64,000 nucleotides of DNA. It comes from Luteitalea pratensis. GTDB taxonomy: Bacteria > Acidobacteriota > Vicinamibacteria > Vicinamibacterales > Vicinamibacteraceae. The position numbers were made by a program, and so were the translations under genes. The stretch's first letter is position 1; each line of letters opens with the position of its first letter. Shown here one piece after another: positions 26,487-49,629 of this stretch. The stretch lies in the NCBI RefSeq assembly GCF_001618865.1, contig NZ_CP015136.1, positions 1,461,001 through 1,525,000 of the forward strand. The letters run 5' to 3'. The notes under the pieces are model-generated. The model ran no database searches, had not been told where the DNA came from, and was given only the letters and a program-made list of their open reading frames with translations.

Positions 26487-26535
26487 CGGTGAGCGTTCGG
26501 CGTTCGACGTTCAGCGTTCGTCGTGTGGCTGACTA
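26487..26535 (-). repeat. Heptad array, 7 units, anchored on a VWFA gene stop codon
   Basis: Minus strand: TAGTCAG (stop), CCACACG, ACGAACG, CTGAACG, TCGAACG, CCGAACG, CTCACCG. Confidence 0.75.
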
Positions 26536-28860
26536 CGGTACGACCTTGAACCCCGTGAGCGTCCGCACCGTGCCGTCCGGGTGCACGACCTCGACGCGGA
26601 CGATGTAGTCGCCCGCGCCGAGGGGCACGAGCGCGACGTCGGCGGTAGCCCACCCGATTCCGGCATCGTCTGGTGCGACGAGGGCGCTGGTGACCGGGAT
26701 GGCCGCCATGACCTTGCCGGCCTGGTCGAGCAGGTCGGCCTTCACGCTCGTGGCCCCGGGCGCGACGGGCACTTCGACGCGCACCTTTTCGTTGCGGCGA
26801 TAGCGAGGGTCGGCTGTCGGCACGAACTTCTGGCGAGTGACCGGGCTGGCCCGTGAGAGTCGTGGTGCGGCCGCGGCGGCGTCCGCTGCCGGCAGCGCCA
26901 GCCGCGCGGTGTCGGTGAGCGGCAATGAGCCGGCCGTCGGGGTGAAGCGCAGTCGGACGAGCAGGTCGCCGGCCTCGAGGGGCGCGGCGGTGGTCAGGAG
27001 CTCCGCGGTCGCGGTGCGCACACCGGCAGCGACAGGCAGCTCGGCTTCGGCCATGGCCGTTCCCTTGCCCGTGGTGACCGTGATCGAGAGCGTGCCGCCC
27101 TGGGCCATGGCCGCATCGCGCATGGTGGACGGATCCAGGTCGGCGGTCACCCAGACACGCCCGGTGCGCGCCGCCGCGCCCGCGCCGGCATGGAAGAAGT
27201 ACGCCGCGCGACTCCGCCACGGCTGCCCCTCCCGGATGCCGCTGACCGAACTGAGTGCAGAGGCGATCGAGGCGCCCTCCGCCGCGGCTGCGGCGTCGCC
27301 GGCCCCCCCTGCCGCGGCGGCCGCGGCCGACGGCGATGCCGTGAGCATGTCCTCGCGCCGGAGGGCACGGTACCCTTTGCGCGCCCGTACCTCCACGCCC
27401 GGCCGCTTGACGCGTACCTTGATCGTGCGCCACTTGCCATCGAGTTGCTCGTTGGCCGAGTAGTACCCGAGCAGGTAGTACGACGAGAGGTCGCGGACGA
27501 TCCGGGCCGCGCCGCCGTCGAGGTCGTTGGTGTTGATGACGGCCAGGCCATCGGTGTTGTCGGCCAACAGGCGCAGCGAGTCGAGCCGGACGTTGAGTTT
27601 GTCGCGGTCGGCCATCATCGAACCGGGGGCGTTGGGGGACTGCTTGTTGTACCACTCGCCCTGGTCGCCGCGGATGCGGTCGTCACGCGCTCCCAGGTCG
27701 GCGTCGAACGCCGTGAGGCCACGCGTGTCGAACGGGTAGAACGACACGTTGTAGCGGTTGGCCTGCTGGGTGAGTTCGATGAATCGCTGACGGTTGTTGA
27801 GCGTCGCGTACCGCATCGCGAGGGCCTGGCAGCCGGCCGAGGACAGCGGCACGCTGTTCTGCGCCCCGCGCGGATTGTTGGTGATGCGGCCGTCGGGCCC
27901 GGTTCCCACTCCGCCGAGCGTCGGCGGGTCATCGCATTCCTGCGGACGCGCCAGTTCGGGCTTGGGTTCGAACATCTCGTAGCCACTGGTCACCGTGATC
28001 AGTGCCTTGCGTTCCTCCTTGACCGTCCCCAGGAAGCGGACGAGACCCTCGAGCGCGTCCAGCACCTCCTTTTCCCGCCGCCGGCGAATCAACTGCTTGG
28101 CAATACCGCGATAGGCATCGGCCGGCTGCGACGACGTGGTGTTGCCGGGTCCGAGGCATTTGCGCGATGGCATGCCTTCGGGGAAGCACTGCTCGAGTGC
28201 CTGCTCCTCCGGGTGGATCATGACCATGTTGTCGCGCATGCCCCACTGCGTTTCATGGCGCAGCGCATTGTCCAGCGTCTCGGTGCGGCGCGCGAACGTG
28301 ATGTGACGTGGGTCCATGTCGGGCGTCATCACCGCGAAGAGGTCCTCAGGACCGATGAGTCGTTCCAGCATGTCGATGAGTGGCTTGCGCGCGTACACGG
28401 CGCCGGCAAACGTCGTGTGCCATGTATCGAGGAACAGCACGAACACGCGGCGACGGGGGTCGGCGGCCTGCTGGAGGCCATCGGCCGCGCTCACCGGGTC
28501 GCGCCGTTCCTCGCGCGCCGTCGTCGTCGACAGCGCCACGCGCTCGAACTGCGTGACCTTCTGCGGCTTGCCGTCTTCGAGTACCTCGAAGTCGTCGGCC
28601 GTCAGATCGGTGATCGGCGCACCCTTGGCAGTGGGGTAGACGTCCACGCGCACGAAGTTGGCTTCGACGCGGAAAGACGGCTGTCCCGGTGTCGCCGGCT
28701 GCGTCCCATCTGCTGGTGCCGGGGCCGGAGCCGGGGCCGGAGCCGTGGCGGGCTGCGCCGGCGCCTGACCGGCCGGTGCCTGCGCACGCATCGCGAAACG
28801 CGCAGGCGCAAGCACCATCAGGGCGAGCGCCGCGATGCCGAGCAGGGGACGGGAGCGCAT
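26533..28860 (-). CDS. VWFA-related Acidobacterial-type exported protein, copy 1
   Basis: 775 residues from ATG 28860 (frame is open to 29055 through repeat sequence). Signal peptide (LLGIAALALMVLAPARFAMRA), an Ala/Pro-rich linker, FRVEANFVRVDVYPT and DFEVLEDGKPQKVTQFERV as in the VWFA-related domain family known mainly from Acidobacteria, then a von Willebrand A-like domain (VFVLFLDTWHT; the MIDAS DxSxS is degenerate), and a C-terminal beta-rich domain with the extender-like RNEKVRVEVPV. Role unknown; probably cell-surface or periplasmic adhesion. Paralogue of the next gene. A TACAGT hexamer lies 6 nt before the ATG. Confidence 0.85.
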   Translation of the reverse strand: MRSRPLLGIAALALMVLAPARFAMRAQAPAGQAPAQPATAPAPAPAPAPADGTQPATPGQPSFRVEANFVRVDVYPTAKGAPITDLTADDFEVLEDGKPQKVTQFERVALSTTTAREERRDPVSAADGLQQAADPRRRVFVLFLDTWHTTFAGAVYARKPLIDMLERLIGPEDLFAVMTPDMDPRHITFARRTETLDNALRHETQWGMRDNMVMIHPEEQALEQCFPEGMPSRKCLGPGNTTSSQPADAYRGIAKQLIRRRREKEVLDALEGLVRFLGTVKEERKALITVTSGYEMFEPKPELARPQECDDPPTLGGVGTGPDGRITNNPRGAQNSVPLSSAGCQALAMRYATLNNRQRFIELTQQANRYNVSFYPFDTRGLTAFDADLGARDDRIRGDQGEWYNKQSPNAPGSMMADRDKLNVRLDSLRLLADNTDGLAVINTNDLDGGAARIVRDLSSYYLLGYYSANEQLDGKWRTIKVRVKRPGVEVRARKGYRALRREDMLTASPSAAAAAAGGAGDAAAAAEGASIASALSSVSGIREGQPWRSRAAYFFHAGAGAAARTGRVWVTADLDPSTMRDAAMAQGGTLSITVTTGKGTAMAEAELPVAAGVRTATAELLTTAAPLEAGDLLVRLRFTPTAGSLPLTDTARLALPAADAAAAAPRLSRASPVTRQKFVPTADPRYRRNEKVRVEVPVAPGATSVKADLLDQAGKVMAAIPVTSALVAPDDAGIGWATADVALVPLGAGDYIVRVEVVHPDGTVRTLTGFKVVP

Positions 28861-28866
28861 GGAGGC

Positions 28867-28872
28867 ACTGTA
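28867..28872 (-). promoter_or_regulatory. -10-like hexamer TACAGT, 6 nt before ATG 28860
   Basis: Minus strand TACAGTGCCTCCATG. The same hexamer and spacing precede the paralogue at 31366. Confidence 0.6.
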
Positions 28873-29047
28873 GTCCCAAATCGACGAACGCCGAACGTCG
28901 AACGCCGAACGCTGAAGGTCAGCGCCTGACGCCTGCCTGAAACCTGATGCCTGATGCCGGCCCGATTCGCGACTCCCGACTCCCGACTCCCGATTCCCGA
29001 CTCCCGATTCCCGGTGCCCGGCTCCCGGTTCCCGGCTCCCGTCGCTA
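28873..29047 (-). repeat. Heptad array, exactly 25 units, from stop codon of copy 2 to the -10 hexamer of copy 1
   Basis: Minus strand from the TAG stop: TAGCGAC, GGGAGCC, GGGAACC, GGGAGCC, GGGCACC, GGGAATC, GGGAGTC, GGGAATC, GGGAGTC three times, GCGAATC, GGGCCGG, CATCAGG twice, TTTCAGG, CAGGCGT, CAGGCGC, TGACCTT, CAGCGTT, CGGCGTT, CGACGTT, CGGCGTT, CGTCGAT, TTGGGAC. Unit 25 is followed directly by TACAGT. Confidence 0.85.
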
Positions 29048-31366
29048 CGGCACAACCCTGAAGCCAGTCAGCGTCCGCACGGTACCGTCGGGGTGCACGA
29101 CGTCGACGCGGACGATGTAGGCGCCCGCGCCGAGCGGCACGAGCGAGAGGTCGGCTGTCGCCCACCCGATACCCGCGTCGTCGGGCGCGACGAGGGCAGT
29201 GGTGACCGGGATGGCCGCCATGACCTTGCCCGCCTGGTCGAGCAGTTCGGCCTTCACGCTCGTGGCTCCTGGCGCGAGGGGGACCTCCACGCGCACCTTC
29301 TCATTGCGGCGATAGCGCGGGTCAGCGGTTGGCACGAACTTCTGCCGCGTCAACGGACTGGCGCGCGAAAGGCGGGGCGAGGCGACCGGCGTGTCCGCGG
29401 CAGGCAGTGACAGCCGTGCCGAGTCGGTCAGCGGCAGCGTGGCGCCCGTGGGCGTGAGCCGGACACGCACGAGCAGGTCGCCGGCGGCCAATGGCGCATT
29501 CGTCGTGGCGAGTTCCGTCGTCGCCGTGCGTGCGCCCGGTGGCACGGGCAGTTCACCCTGCGCCACCGTGGCCCCGGCGCTCGTGGTCACCGTAACGGCC
29601 AGCGTGCCGCCTTGGGCAAGTGATGCGTCACCCAGCGCTGACGGATCGAGATCGGCCGTCACCCATATCCGTCCCGTCCGCGCCGCCGCGCCCGCGCCCG
29701 CGTGGAAGAAGTACGCCGCGCGGCTGCGCCATGGCTGCCCTTCGCGAATCCCGTTGACCGAACCCAGCGCGGCTGCCAACAGGCTGCTCTCCGCCGCCGC
29801 GGCCGACTCACCGGCACCCCCCGCCGCGTCTGTTCGTGCCGTCTCGGTGATGGCCGCCATGTCCTCGGCGCGCAATGCGCGATAGCCCTTGCGCGCCCGC
29901 ACCTCCGCGCCAGGACGTTTCACGCGCACCTTGATCGTGCGCCACTTGCCGTCGAGGCTCTCGTTGGCCGAGTAGTAGCCGAGCAGGTAGTACGAGGACA
30001 GGTCCTGGACGATGCGCGCCGCGCCAGCGTCGAGGTTGTTGGTGTTGATGATGGCGAGGCCGTCCGTGTTCTCGGCGAGCAGGCGCAGTGAGTCGAGGCG
30101 CACGTTGAGCGACGCGCGATCGCCCATCAGCGTGCCGGGCTGCGTGCCGGTCTCCTTGTTGTACCACTCGCCCCGATCGACCACCATCCGCTCGTCCCGG
30201 TCGCCCACGTTCGAATCGAAGGCGGCGAGGCCGCGGGTGTCGAAGGGATAGAACGACACGTTGTAGCGGTTGGCTTCCTGCGTCAGCGCGATGAACCGCT
30301 GCCGGTTGTTCAGCCTTGCGTACTTGGCAGCCGTCGTCGCGCACTCGATCGACGACATCGCCCCAGCGGACCCGCTCTGGGCGCGGCCCGTGTTGGTCGT
30401 AATCCGGCCGTCGGGGCCGGTGCCCGTGCCGCCCATGGACGGCGGAGCCGCGCACTCTTCGTGCCGGAGCAGGTCCTCCTTGGGCTCGAACATCTGGTAC
30501 CCGGTCGTGACGGTGATGAGTGCCTTGCGTTCTTCACGCACGCCGCCGAGATACCGGACCAGGCCCTCGAGCGCGTCCAGGACTTCGTTCTCGCGGCGCC
30601 GGCGAATCAACTGCGAGGCGATGCCCTTGTTGGCATTGCGGCTGGCGCCCGTACAGCCCGGCGGCGGCAGGCCCTCCGGAAAGCACATCTCCAGTTGCTG
30701 TTCTTCGGGGTGCTGTCGGATGATGCTGTCCTTCATACCCCATTGCGTCTGCTTCATGAGCATGTCGCTGATCGTCTCGGTGCGGCGTGCGAAGGTGATC
30801 TGCCGGGGGTCCATGTCGGGAGTCATGACCGCGAACAGGTCGTCCGGACCGATCAATCGCTCCAGCATGTTCACGAGCGGCCTGCGGGCGCGCACGGCCC
30901 CCCCGAAGTCGGTGTGCCACGTGTCGAGAAAAATCACGTACACGCGGCGCCGTGGATCGGCAGCCTGCCGGCGGCCATCGTCGGCGCTCACCGGGTCGCG
31001 CCGCTCCTCGCGTGCGGTCGTCGTCGAGAGCGCCACGCGTTCGAACTGCGTCACCTTCTGCGGCTTGTTGTCTTCGAGCACCTCGAAGTCGTCGGCCGTG
31101 AGGTCGGTGATCGGCTCGCCCCTGGCGTTGGTCGGATAGACGTCCACGCGCACGAAGTTGGCTTCCACCCGGAACGTTGGCTGTGCAGGTGTGGCCGGCT
31201 GCGACCCGTCTGCCGGTGCGGGCGCCGGTGTCTGCGACGCGGGTGCGGGCTGGCCTTGCTGGGCCTGCCCAGCCCGGCCATCGCCCTGCGCACGCATCGG
31301 CGCACGCGCGGGCGTGAGCAGCATCAGGACGGCAGCCGCAATGCCGAGCAGTGTGCGTGAACGCAT
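29045..31366 (-). CDS. VWFA-related Acidobacterial-type exported protein, copy 2
   Basis: 773 residues. Tandem paralogue of the preceding gene with long identical stretches throughout (for example TTAREERRDPVSA, LIRRRRENEVLDALEGLVR, SLRLLAENTDGLAIINTN against near-identical segments) and the same domain order: signal peptide, Pro-rich linker, VWFA-related domain with degenerate MIDAS (VIFLDTWHTDF), and C-terminal beta-rich region ending GFRVVP. Main differences are in the linker and in the 330-370 region. Same direction as copy 1, separated by a pure heptad array, and same TACAGT hexamer upstream. Most likely a fairly recent duplication. Confidence 0.85.
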   Translation of the reverse strand: MRSRTLLGIAAAVLMLLTPARAPMRAQGDGRAGQAQQGQPAPASQTPAPAPADGSQPATPAQPTFRVEANFVRVDVYPTNARGEPITDLTADDFEVLEDNKPQKVTQFERVALSTTTAREERRDPVSADDGRRQAADPRRRVYVIFLDTWHTDFGGAVRARRPLVNMLERLIGPDDLFAVMTPDMDPRQITFARRTETISDMLMKQTQWGMKDSIIRQHPEEQQLEMCFPEGLPPPGCTGASRNANKGIASQLIRRRRENEVLDALEGLVRYLGGVREERKALITVTTGYQMFEPKEDLLRHEECAAPPSMGGTGTGPDGRITTNTGRAQSGSAGAMSSIECATTAAKYARLNNRQRFIALTQEANRYNVSFYPFDTRGLAAFDSNVGDRDERMVVDRGEWYNKETGTQPGTLMGDRASLNVRLDSLRLLAENTDGLAIINTNNLDAGAARIVQDLSSYYLLGYYSANESLDGKWRTIKVRVKRPGAEVRARKGYRALRAEDMAAITETARTDAAGGAGESAAAAESSLLAAALGSVNGIREGQPWRSRAAYFFHAGAGAAARTGRIWVTADLDPSALGDASLAQGGTLAVTVTTSAGATVAQGELPVPPGARTATTELATTNAPLAAGDLLVRVRLTPTGATLPLTDSARLSLPAADTPVASPRLSRASPLTRQKFVPTADPRYRRNEKVRVEVPLAPGATSVKAELLDQAGKVMAAIPVTTALVAPDDAGIGWATADLSLVPLGAGAYIVRVDVVHPDGTVRTLTGFRVVP

Positions 31367-31378: not shown

Positions 31379-31384
31379 GCTCCA

Positions 31385-31489
31385 AACGCTTGACGCTTGA
31401 CGCTTGACGCCTGACGCCTGACGCCTGATGCCTAACGCCGAAGGTCAAGGCCCAAGGGCCAAGGCTCAAGGGCAAGGGCCGTCTCAGGC
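31385..31489 (+). repeat. Heptad array, 15 units, between divergent promoters
   Basis: AACGCTT, GACGCTT twice, GACGCCT three times, GATGCCT, AACGCCG, AAGGTCA, AGGCCCA, AGGGCCA, AGGCTCA, AGGGCAA, GGGCCGT, CTCAGGC, in one register between the VWFA copy 2 and the metallo-hydrolase. Confidence 0.85.
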
Positions 31490-41235: not shown

Positions 41236-41529
41236 ATGATCGAGGAGACTGCCGACGGCATCGTGCTGGCGGTCCGCGTGATTCCGCGGGCCGGCCGGTC
41301 CGGGCTCGCGGGGACCCGCGACGACGCCGTGGTGGTGCGTCTTGGCGCGTCGCCTGTGGATGGTGCGGCCAATGCCGAGCTCGTTGTCGTACTCGCGGCA
41401 GCCTTCGGCGTGGCTCGTCGGGACATTGCGATCGTGTCCGGCGATCGTTCCCGCCACAAACGCGTGCGCATGAGAGGCATCGATGCCGCCGCCGCCGCGG
41501 CGGTGATCGCGGCCGCGCCACAGGGATAA
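41236..41529 (+). CDS. DUF167/YggU-family protein
   Basis: 97 residues. Family signature: VRVIPRAGRSGLAG near the N-terminus, VVRLGASPVDGAANAELV and VSGDRSRHKRVRM. Small cytoplasmic protein of unknown biochemical role, often next to unrelated genes. The TonB receptor starts 7 nt after its stop, and that receptor's -10-like hexamer overlaps this stop codon. Confidence 0.9.
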   Translation: MIEETADGIVLAVRVIPRAGRSGLAGTRDDAVVVRLGASPVDGAANAELVVVLAAAFGVARRDIAIVSGDRSRHKRVRMRGIDAAAAAAVIAAAPQG

Positions 41530-49477: not shown

Positions 49478-49629
49478 AATTTCAGAATTGCAGAATTTCA
49501 GAATTTCACCGCTAACGGCATGATTCGCCCCTCAGCATGCTCCCTGAGCCTCGAGCCCTCAGCTTCGAGTCGTTCCAATATGGCGGTGTCCCTGAAATTC
49601 CTGAAATTCCTGAAATTGTGAAATTGTAG
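49478..49629. repeat. AT-rich island with inverted 8/9-nt repeats
   Basis: AATTTCAGAATTGCAGAATT... (49478-49508) is complementary in pattern to CCTGAAATTCCTGAAATTCC... (49591-49629), so the two halves could pair around a ~80-base loop. Distinctly less G+C-rich than all surroundings; directly upstream of the large peptidase gene. Confidence 0.7.

Follow-up and report, generated by a model that had tools for sequence, protein, structure and literature searches.

In the chromosome of Luteitalea pratensis (one contig of 7,480,314 bases), two neighboring genes of the minus strand are separated by a short gap in which tandem seven-nucleotide units run from the stop codon of the one to a promoter-like hexamer just before the start codon of the other. 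This arrangement raises the question of whether the repeats are a working part of the promoter that they adjoin, as the initial annotation had proposed, or members of a more general class of sequence that happens to lie beside it. Here, we examine the locus within the window, by which we mean the whole analyzed stretch of 64,000 nucleotides (positions 1,461,001 to 1,525,000 of contig NZ_CP015136.1), and in samples of the same genome and its relatives. The features concerned are, in window coordinates:

26492..26520, no strand assigned: heptad array of CGAACGC/GCGTTCG units, 12 nt beyond the stop of the downstream VWA copy (from sequence)
26533..28860, minus strand: VWA protein gene, TIGR03436 (acidobact_VWFA), downstream copy (from a family match)
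28861..29047, minus strand: the whole stretch of stop codon, three heptad blocks, -10 hexamer and 6 nt to the start (from sequence, tiling and lag-7 count)
28867..28872, minus strand: TACAGT, presumed -10 of a leaderless promoter, 6 nt from the ATG (from sequence, relatives and genome-wide TANNNT)
28880..28914, minus strand: GCGTTC-like block of about 5 units, over the presumed -35 region (from tiling)
28922..28956, minus strand: AGGCAT/AGGCGT-like block of about 5 units, with an internal phase slip (from tiling)
28964..29040, minus strand: G-run block of 11 GGGARCC/GGGARTC-like units, a potential G-quadruplex (from tract positions)
29045..31366, minus strand: VWA protein gene, TIGR03436, upstream copy and tandem paralogue, with its stop TAG at 29047-29045 (from a family match)
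31380..31442, minus strand: heptad array of AGGCGT/AAGCGT units before the paralogue, followed by TACAGT (31378-31373), 6 nt and ATG (from sequence)

The flanking genes are indeed paralogues of the VWFA type, as had been claimed: both match TIGR03436 and the two copies are about 74% identical. At the loci compared in three relatives of the same genus (G001, G002 and G004) there is a single close VWA copy, so the pair likely arose by tandem duplication in the present lineage; in G002 the metallo-beta-lactamase neighbor of the VWA gene has been retained. Along the minus strand, the 187 nt from 29047 to 28861 open with the TAG, are tiled 25 x 7 nt and then pass through TACAGT and GCCTCC to the ATG at 28860, the tiling being 25 heptads (175 nt) plus TACAGTGCCTCC. 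At a lag of 7, 115 of 168 bases are identical, whereas 2000 shuffles averaged 48.5 and never exceeded 68. The earlier picture of heptads that exactly fill the space between stop codon and -10 is therefore correct in so far as 175 nt do tile as 25 heptads before TACAGT and its 6 nt, but these are not 25 copies of a unit. Only about 20 of the 25 tiles are copies; they fall into three unit families with phase breaks, and TAGCGAC, GGGCCGG, TGACCTT and TTGGGAC are joints. The exact filling is therefore a matter of tiling, and partly of arithmetic, 175 being divisible by 7. In the G-run block (29040-28964), GGGAATC and GGGAGTC units occur and 10 successive G3 tracts (12 were counted at the locus) follow each other at 7-nt spacing, the first only 4 nt past the stop codon. 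A strict array caller covered 62% of the 184-nt gap. Among codirectional gaps of 60-400 nt (sample n=470) there were 20, this one included, with at least 60% array coverage; a nearly filled gap is not unique in the chromosome. Elsewhere in the window (49478-49508 and 49591-49625) lie two short arrays, with units of 8 and 9 nt (AATTTCAG and CCTGAAATT), apparently mutually inverted relatives about 80 nt apart.

To place the locus among its like, genes were called, starts included, with a simple codon-usage caller of our own making, and arrays with a scan for lag-7 segments. In 1.264 Mb, period 7 gave 165 arrays in gaps and 19 in coding sequence, period 8 gave 25 and 0, and the remaining periods from 4 to 13 gave 0-10 in gaps; Markov-shuffled gaps gave 0 arrays. 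A sample of 2.064 Mb, in which only arrays between two called genes were counted (those inside genes or at stretch ends being excluded), held 275 gap arrays. The stretches of its second batch were hand-picked for even spread when the list of GGGARTC matches was already known, and some hold listed arrays, a choice that may inflate array density and should not produce either orientation or stop anchoring. The 275 arrays comprise at least 101 unit classes, as judged from perfect neighboring pairs; period and place are conserved, whereas the sequence of the unit is not. The place is strongly constrained. Array density per kb is 1.32 in convergent, 0.95 in codirectional and 0.57 in divergent gaps. 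Array ends abut a stop codon 69 times, compared with an expected 29.0 (sd 4.5; reached in 0 of 1000 randomizations), and a start codon 10 times, compared with 18.4. The stop effect is present in the first batch (35 versus 17.4) and in the held-out second (34 versus 11.3), as well as in a second species, G001 (19 versus 8.1). Frequently the stop codon is itself in register with the units, as where TAACGCC is repeated: two or three stop bases recur 7 nt on in 36 of the 73 abutting arrays, the background being 240 of 1650 genes overall. We also considered that the arrays might supply stop codons in all frames and rejected this, stop triplets being more numerous in the sense strand of 29 and in the antisense strand of 23 of these 73. 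The locus array is thus nothing out of the ordinary within a repeat population that is itself unusual and spans the genome.

Arrays with a GGG/CCC imbalance of at least 2 have, in addition, a preferred direction. With replichores inferred from dnaA at position 340 and the window position (1461001-1525000), and with the terminus assumed at 3.9 Mb, 73 of 97 arrays have the G strand as leading-strand template (p 6e-7); placing the terminus between 3.3 and 4.5 Mb gives 71-74 of 97, GC skew being too weak for confirmation. The two batches agree (38/52 and 35/45), and G3 runs outside arrays have no strand bias (4496 of 8954). Within codirectional gaps, the G strand is antisense rather than sense by 25 to 3 where the genes are codirectional with the fork and sense rather than antisense by 20 to 4 where they are head-on, so that the orientation follows the fork in 45 of 52 arrays while the overall numbers are 23 sense and 29 antisense. 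It is replication, not transcription, that goes with orientation. The share on the leading template is 16/30 for arrays with one net G3 tract, 21/34 for two or three and 52/63 for four or more, and the median number of tracts is 5 in the common orientation and 3 in the rare one (p 0.012). Among the nine families compared (p values uncorrected), the leading-template share is 35/41 for GGGYRCC, 14/16 for GGGARTC, 5/6 for GGGANCC, 16/23 for GCGTTAR, 16/22 for GGCCKTM and 12/23 for AGGCTGS; strand bias is absent for AGGCRTS (13/26) and AGGTCTC (21/39). The GGCGTTC arrays, which are without G3 runs, nonetheless lean to the leading template (27/38, p 0.014, uncorrected for the nine families), and for this lean quadruplexes do not account. 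Lists of pattern matches from the whole genome gave 39 of 55 loci for GGGARTC and 27 of 53 for AGGCRTS, and in G001 the orientation has a like direction (19/27, p 0.052). The G-run arrays are also polar with respect to their neighbors, lying closer to the gene 5' of the G strand by 83 to 14 (medians 23 versus 142 nt), with the same polarity in G001 (22 to 5). Our locus, which by position is in the left replichore, with its genes head-on and with the G strand both the coding strand and the presumed leading-strand template, obeys stop anchoring, leading-template orientation and 5'-side polarity alike.

The promoter side of the gap has a genome-wide counterpart of its own. TANNNT occurs 6, 7 and 8 nt before the starts of 44, 29 and 21 of 1085 genes, the expectation (computed for 667 genes) being about 3.6 per position, and a Shine-Dalgarno-like motif is found in 2 of 60 TANNNT genes versus 195 of 667 overall; such a combination is the mark of leaderless genes (PMC3160421). 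At our locus the arrangement is TACAGT-6-ATG, with GGAG, GAGG and AGGA absent directly before the ATG. The same TACAGT-6-ATG precedes the paralogue, and the G001 orthologue has TACAGT-7-ATG with, by eye, fewer heptads upstream; G002 (TAGATT-6-ATG, from a predicted start) and G004 (TATACA-7-ATG) are by eye without heptads there. The assignment of TACAGT as a -10, already made in the initial annotation, is supported by this recurrence and by the genome-wide enrichment of TANNNT. In the known leaderless promoters of this type TANNNT likewise lies about 12 bp before the start, and the accounts concerned describe most Deinococcus cases as lacking a classical -35 (PMC3160421, PMC12340547); in Deinococcus, a -10 adjoining the reading frame suffices without a -35, though a well-placed -35 strengthens it (PMC12340547). 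Unlike the promoters in those accounts, some of those here have heptads reaching the -10. In several of the 14 leaderless-type genes that bear heptads over the -35 region (14 of 102), the -10 by eye follows the last heptad immediately (e.g. GGCGT-TAAGAT), which suggests that array ends may be able to become -10 boxes. At window position 41236 and in other leaderless-type genes, the -10 hexamer adjoins the last heptad as though derived from it via one or two changes.

Could the heptads beside TACAGT nevertheless be upstream promoter elements, either -35 or activator sites, whose copy number tunes expression of the downstream VWA gene? Repeats do cover the -35 region, both here and in 13 other leaderless-type genes, they also precede the paralogue and the G001 orthologue, and arrays lie close upstream of 15 of 101 leaderless-type genes versus 36 of 984 others (p 2e-5). 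By batch, however, this excess is 11/60 versus 20/601 in the first (13/60 versus 27/607 by a looser count) and only 4/41 versus 16/383 in the held-out second (p 0.12). It may be explained by the missing 5' leader: an array barred from leaders and -10 boxes can approach the start of a leaderless gene more closely. Since the excess also extends further upstream (19/78 versus 93/825), some link between arrays and promoters is possible. The assertion that no room is left for a -35 is true of the position, which lies inside the repeats (28890-28895), but TTCGGC there matches TTGACA at only 2 of 6 bases, and a scan of the locus for the sigma-70 consensus gave no match. At the 17-nt spacer, likeness to TTGACA averages 1.43 of 6 in the 14 heptad-bearing genes and 1.69 in the 88 without heptads, and we accordingly rejected the heptads as a substitute for the -35. 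Moreover, G002 and G004 retain the -10 without heptads, array density before leaderless-type genes stays level between 20 and 110 nt with no peak at -35, the unit family varies among those with heptads, and the arrays favor stops over starts. We consider a promoter role for the repeats rather improbable, and the more specific suggestion of phase variation, in which heptad number would switch VWA expression within a population, very improbable indeed. Array length does evolve, from no heptads before the orthologues of G002 and G004 to about 25 tiles here, in a comparison of one genome per species. But in a phase-variable promoter repeat number alters the -35/-10 spacing or the frame, and here the last repeat lies before the -10, some 20 nt short of the ATG, so that with a presumed leaderless start whole units added further up would leave the unit at the -35 position, the spacing and the frame unchanged; similar arrays, besides, occupy gaps throughout the genome.

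A second group of explanations concerns the G-runs themselves. The block could act on the mRNA of the upstream gene by folding into a quadruplex, thereby causing RNA polymerase to pause or shielding the 3' end, and the 10 successive G3 tracts beginning 4 nt past its stop codon would suit such a role, as would the coincidence of G strand and coding strand in 26 of the 34 stop-abutting arrays with GGG/CCC imbalance (73 abut in all). We regard this as unlikely: in codirectional gaps it is the fork rather than transcription that the G strand tracks, and G-runs are lacking from many of the arrays that abut a stop. Ordinary RNA structure and an intrinsic terminator were tried and rejected for the locus, where folding with quadruplexes excluded was no better than that of shuffles (z -0.42) and no intrinsic terminator was found. 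The fork-related bias of 73/97 would also be expected if the arrays were polar, strand-selected marks of chromosome organization, akin to FtsK-orienting or Chi-type motifs. The bias, however, is stronger the more G-runs an array has, and AGGCRTS and AGGTCTC units do not show it, which makes such a function scarcely credible. In FtsK-orienting motifs the G-rich strand is the leading one, contrary to the present arrays.

The closest known relatives are the G-rich heptameric repeats GGGNATC and GGGGA(C/T)T of Xanthomonas and Nostoc (PMC4692102). They resemble the present arrays in having GGGAATC-related units located in gaps, in being rarer between divergent genes, in commonly having four or more G3 tracts and in their proximity to the 5' neighbor along the G strand, on average 28 versus 160 nt there as compared with our medians of 23 versus 142 nt. 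They differ in that the repeats described here fall into at least 101 unit classes, many of which contain no G-runs, with several families forming a mosaic in one gap; the Xanthomonas report saw no leading/lagging preference (PMC4692102), whereas here, in another phylum (Acidobacteriota), there is a replication-strand bias. Heptanucleotides were the commonest long unit in the survey of simple sequence repeats by Mrazek (2007), for which polymerase slippage was proposed, as would apply here; the summaries of it given by PMC4679880 and PMC4692102 mention neither an anchoring to stop codons nor an orientation by the fork. The TAACTGA repeats of the Beggiatoaceae (PMC4679880) are likewise heptad arrays in gaps, but they are described there as one unit, mostly in 2-6 copies, directly before start codons, as opposed to many units and a preference for stops. 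A search of the open-licence literature found no report of replication orientation for bacterial heptads; this orientation of G-run arrays and the anchoring to stop codons are the new elements.

The arrays change between species. In 63 reciprocal gene pairs of G000 and G001, an array begins at most 60 nt past the stop in both species at 4 gene ends and in only one species at 10 (p 0.014), and at these shared ends the units differ in at least 3 of the 4, the VWA gene included. Array sites would thus seem to persist while their units turn over, although longer gaps at shared gene ends could be a source of the co-occurrence. Past the VWA stop of G001 (L058:10185-10216), where the gene end matches that before the window's G-run block, there are AATTTGA heptads, AT-rich as against the usual GC-rich units. 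In a sample of the phylum, three tandem GGGARTC units occur in 5 of 119 genomes and are abundant only in G000 (84 matches); a shorter pattern has 510 matches in G001. The reversed control pattern matched 34 and 5 times in G067 and G077, two large genomes from a different family within the phylum, and these matches are CTRAGGG heptads, a different G-run heptad. In G001, three places (C1:1560425, 4304143 and 5695458) have identical DnaA-domain scores and open frames of 581 codons, and may represent one mobile element, carrying an ATPase gene, in three copies.

The reading that we prefer, with a probability of about 0.68, is that these are repeats grown by slippage, tolerated after the stop codon, oriented by replication and, at this locus, lying beside a promoter that needs little beyond its -10. 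Heptad arrays probably expand and shrink via replication slippage of 7 nt, and would persist where they are least harmful, that is from the stop codon onward and off 5' leaders, -10 boxes and coding sequence; the positions are those observed, and relative harmlessness is their presumed cause. Among those with G-runs, the survivors mostly have the G strand as leading-strand template, presumably because arrays in the other orientation would contract through a quadruplex formed on the lagging-strand template. This extrapolates from another repeat, GGGGCC, which in E. coli plasmids contracts solely when the G's are on the lagging-strand template (PMC4661408); a contraction of that kind would generate the bias found here. 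At the locus, one such array occupies the gap between the two tandem copies of the VWA gene, and the downstream one is most likely expressed as a leaderless mRNA from TACAGT, with little or no -35 required. With such a promoter the heptads would be passive, or at most a weak modulator, and on the sequences compared, the geometry is most readily understood as that of a leaderless promoter consisting of a -10 only, with passive repeats beside it. A bolder and doubtful conjecture is that the genus has a permanently active mechanism of 7-nt tandem duplication, nearly independent of sequence, which begins where translation ends and proceeds along the newly made lagging strand; the arrays would then be fossils of fork direction, and those with TA-bearing units (such as GCGTTAR and GGTACCC) would time and again make array ends into TANNNT boxes and so into leaderless promoters.

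Arrays of heptads were described in scattered bacteria long ago, but their cause has not been agreed upon. That the orientation of those with G-runs tracks the fork and not transcription, and does so increasingly as G-runs become more numerous, makes the question of their maintenance one that can be tested with simple constructs on a plasmid or in the chromosome, and the anchoring of arrays to stop codons, together with the turnover of their units at shared gene ends, informs both the evolution of intergenic gaps and the origin of minimal, -10-only promoters.
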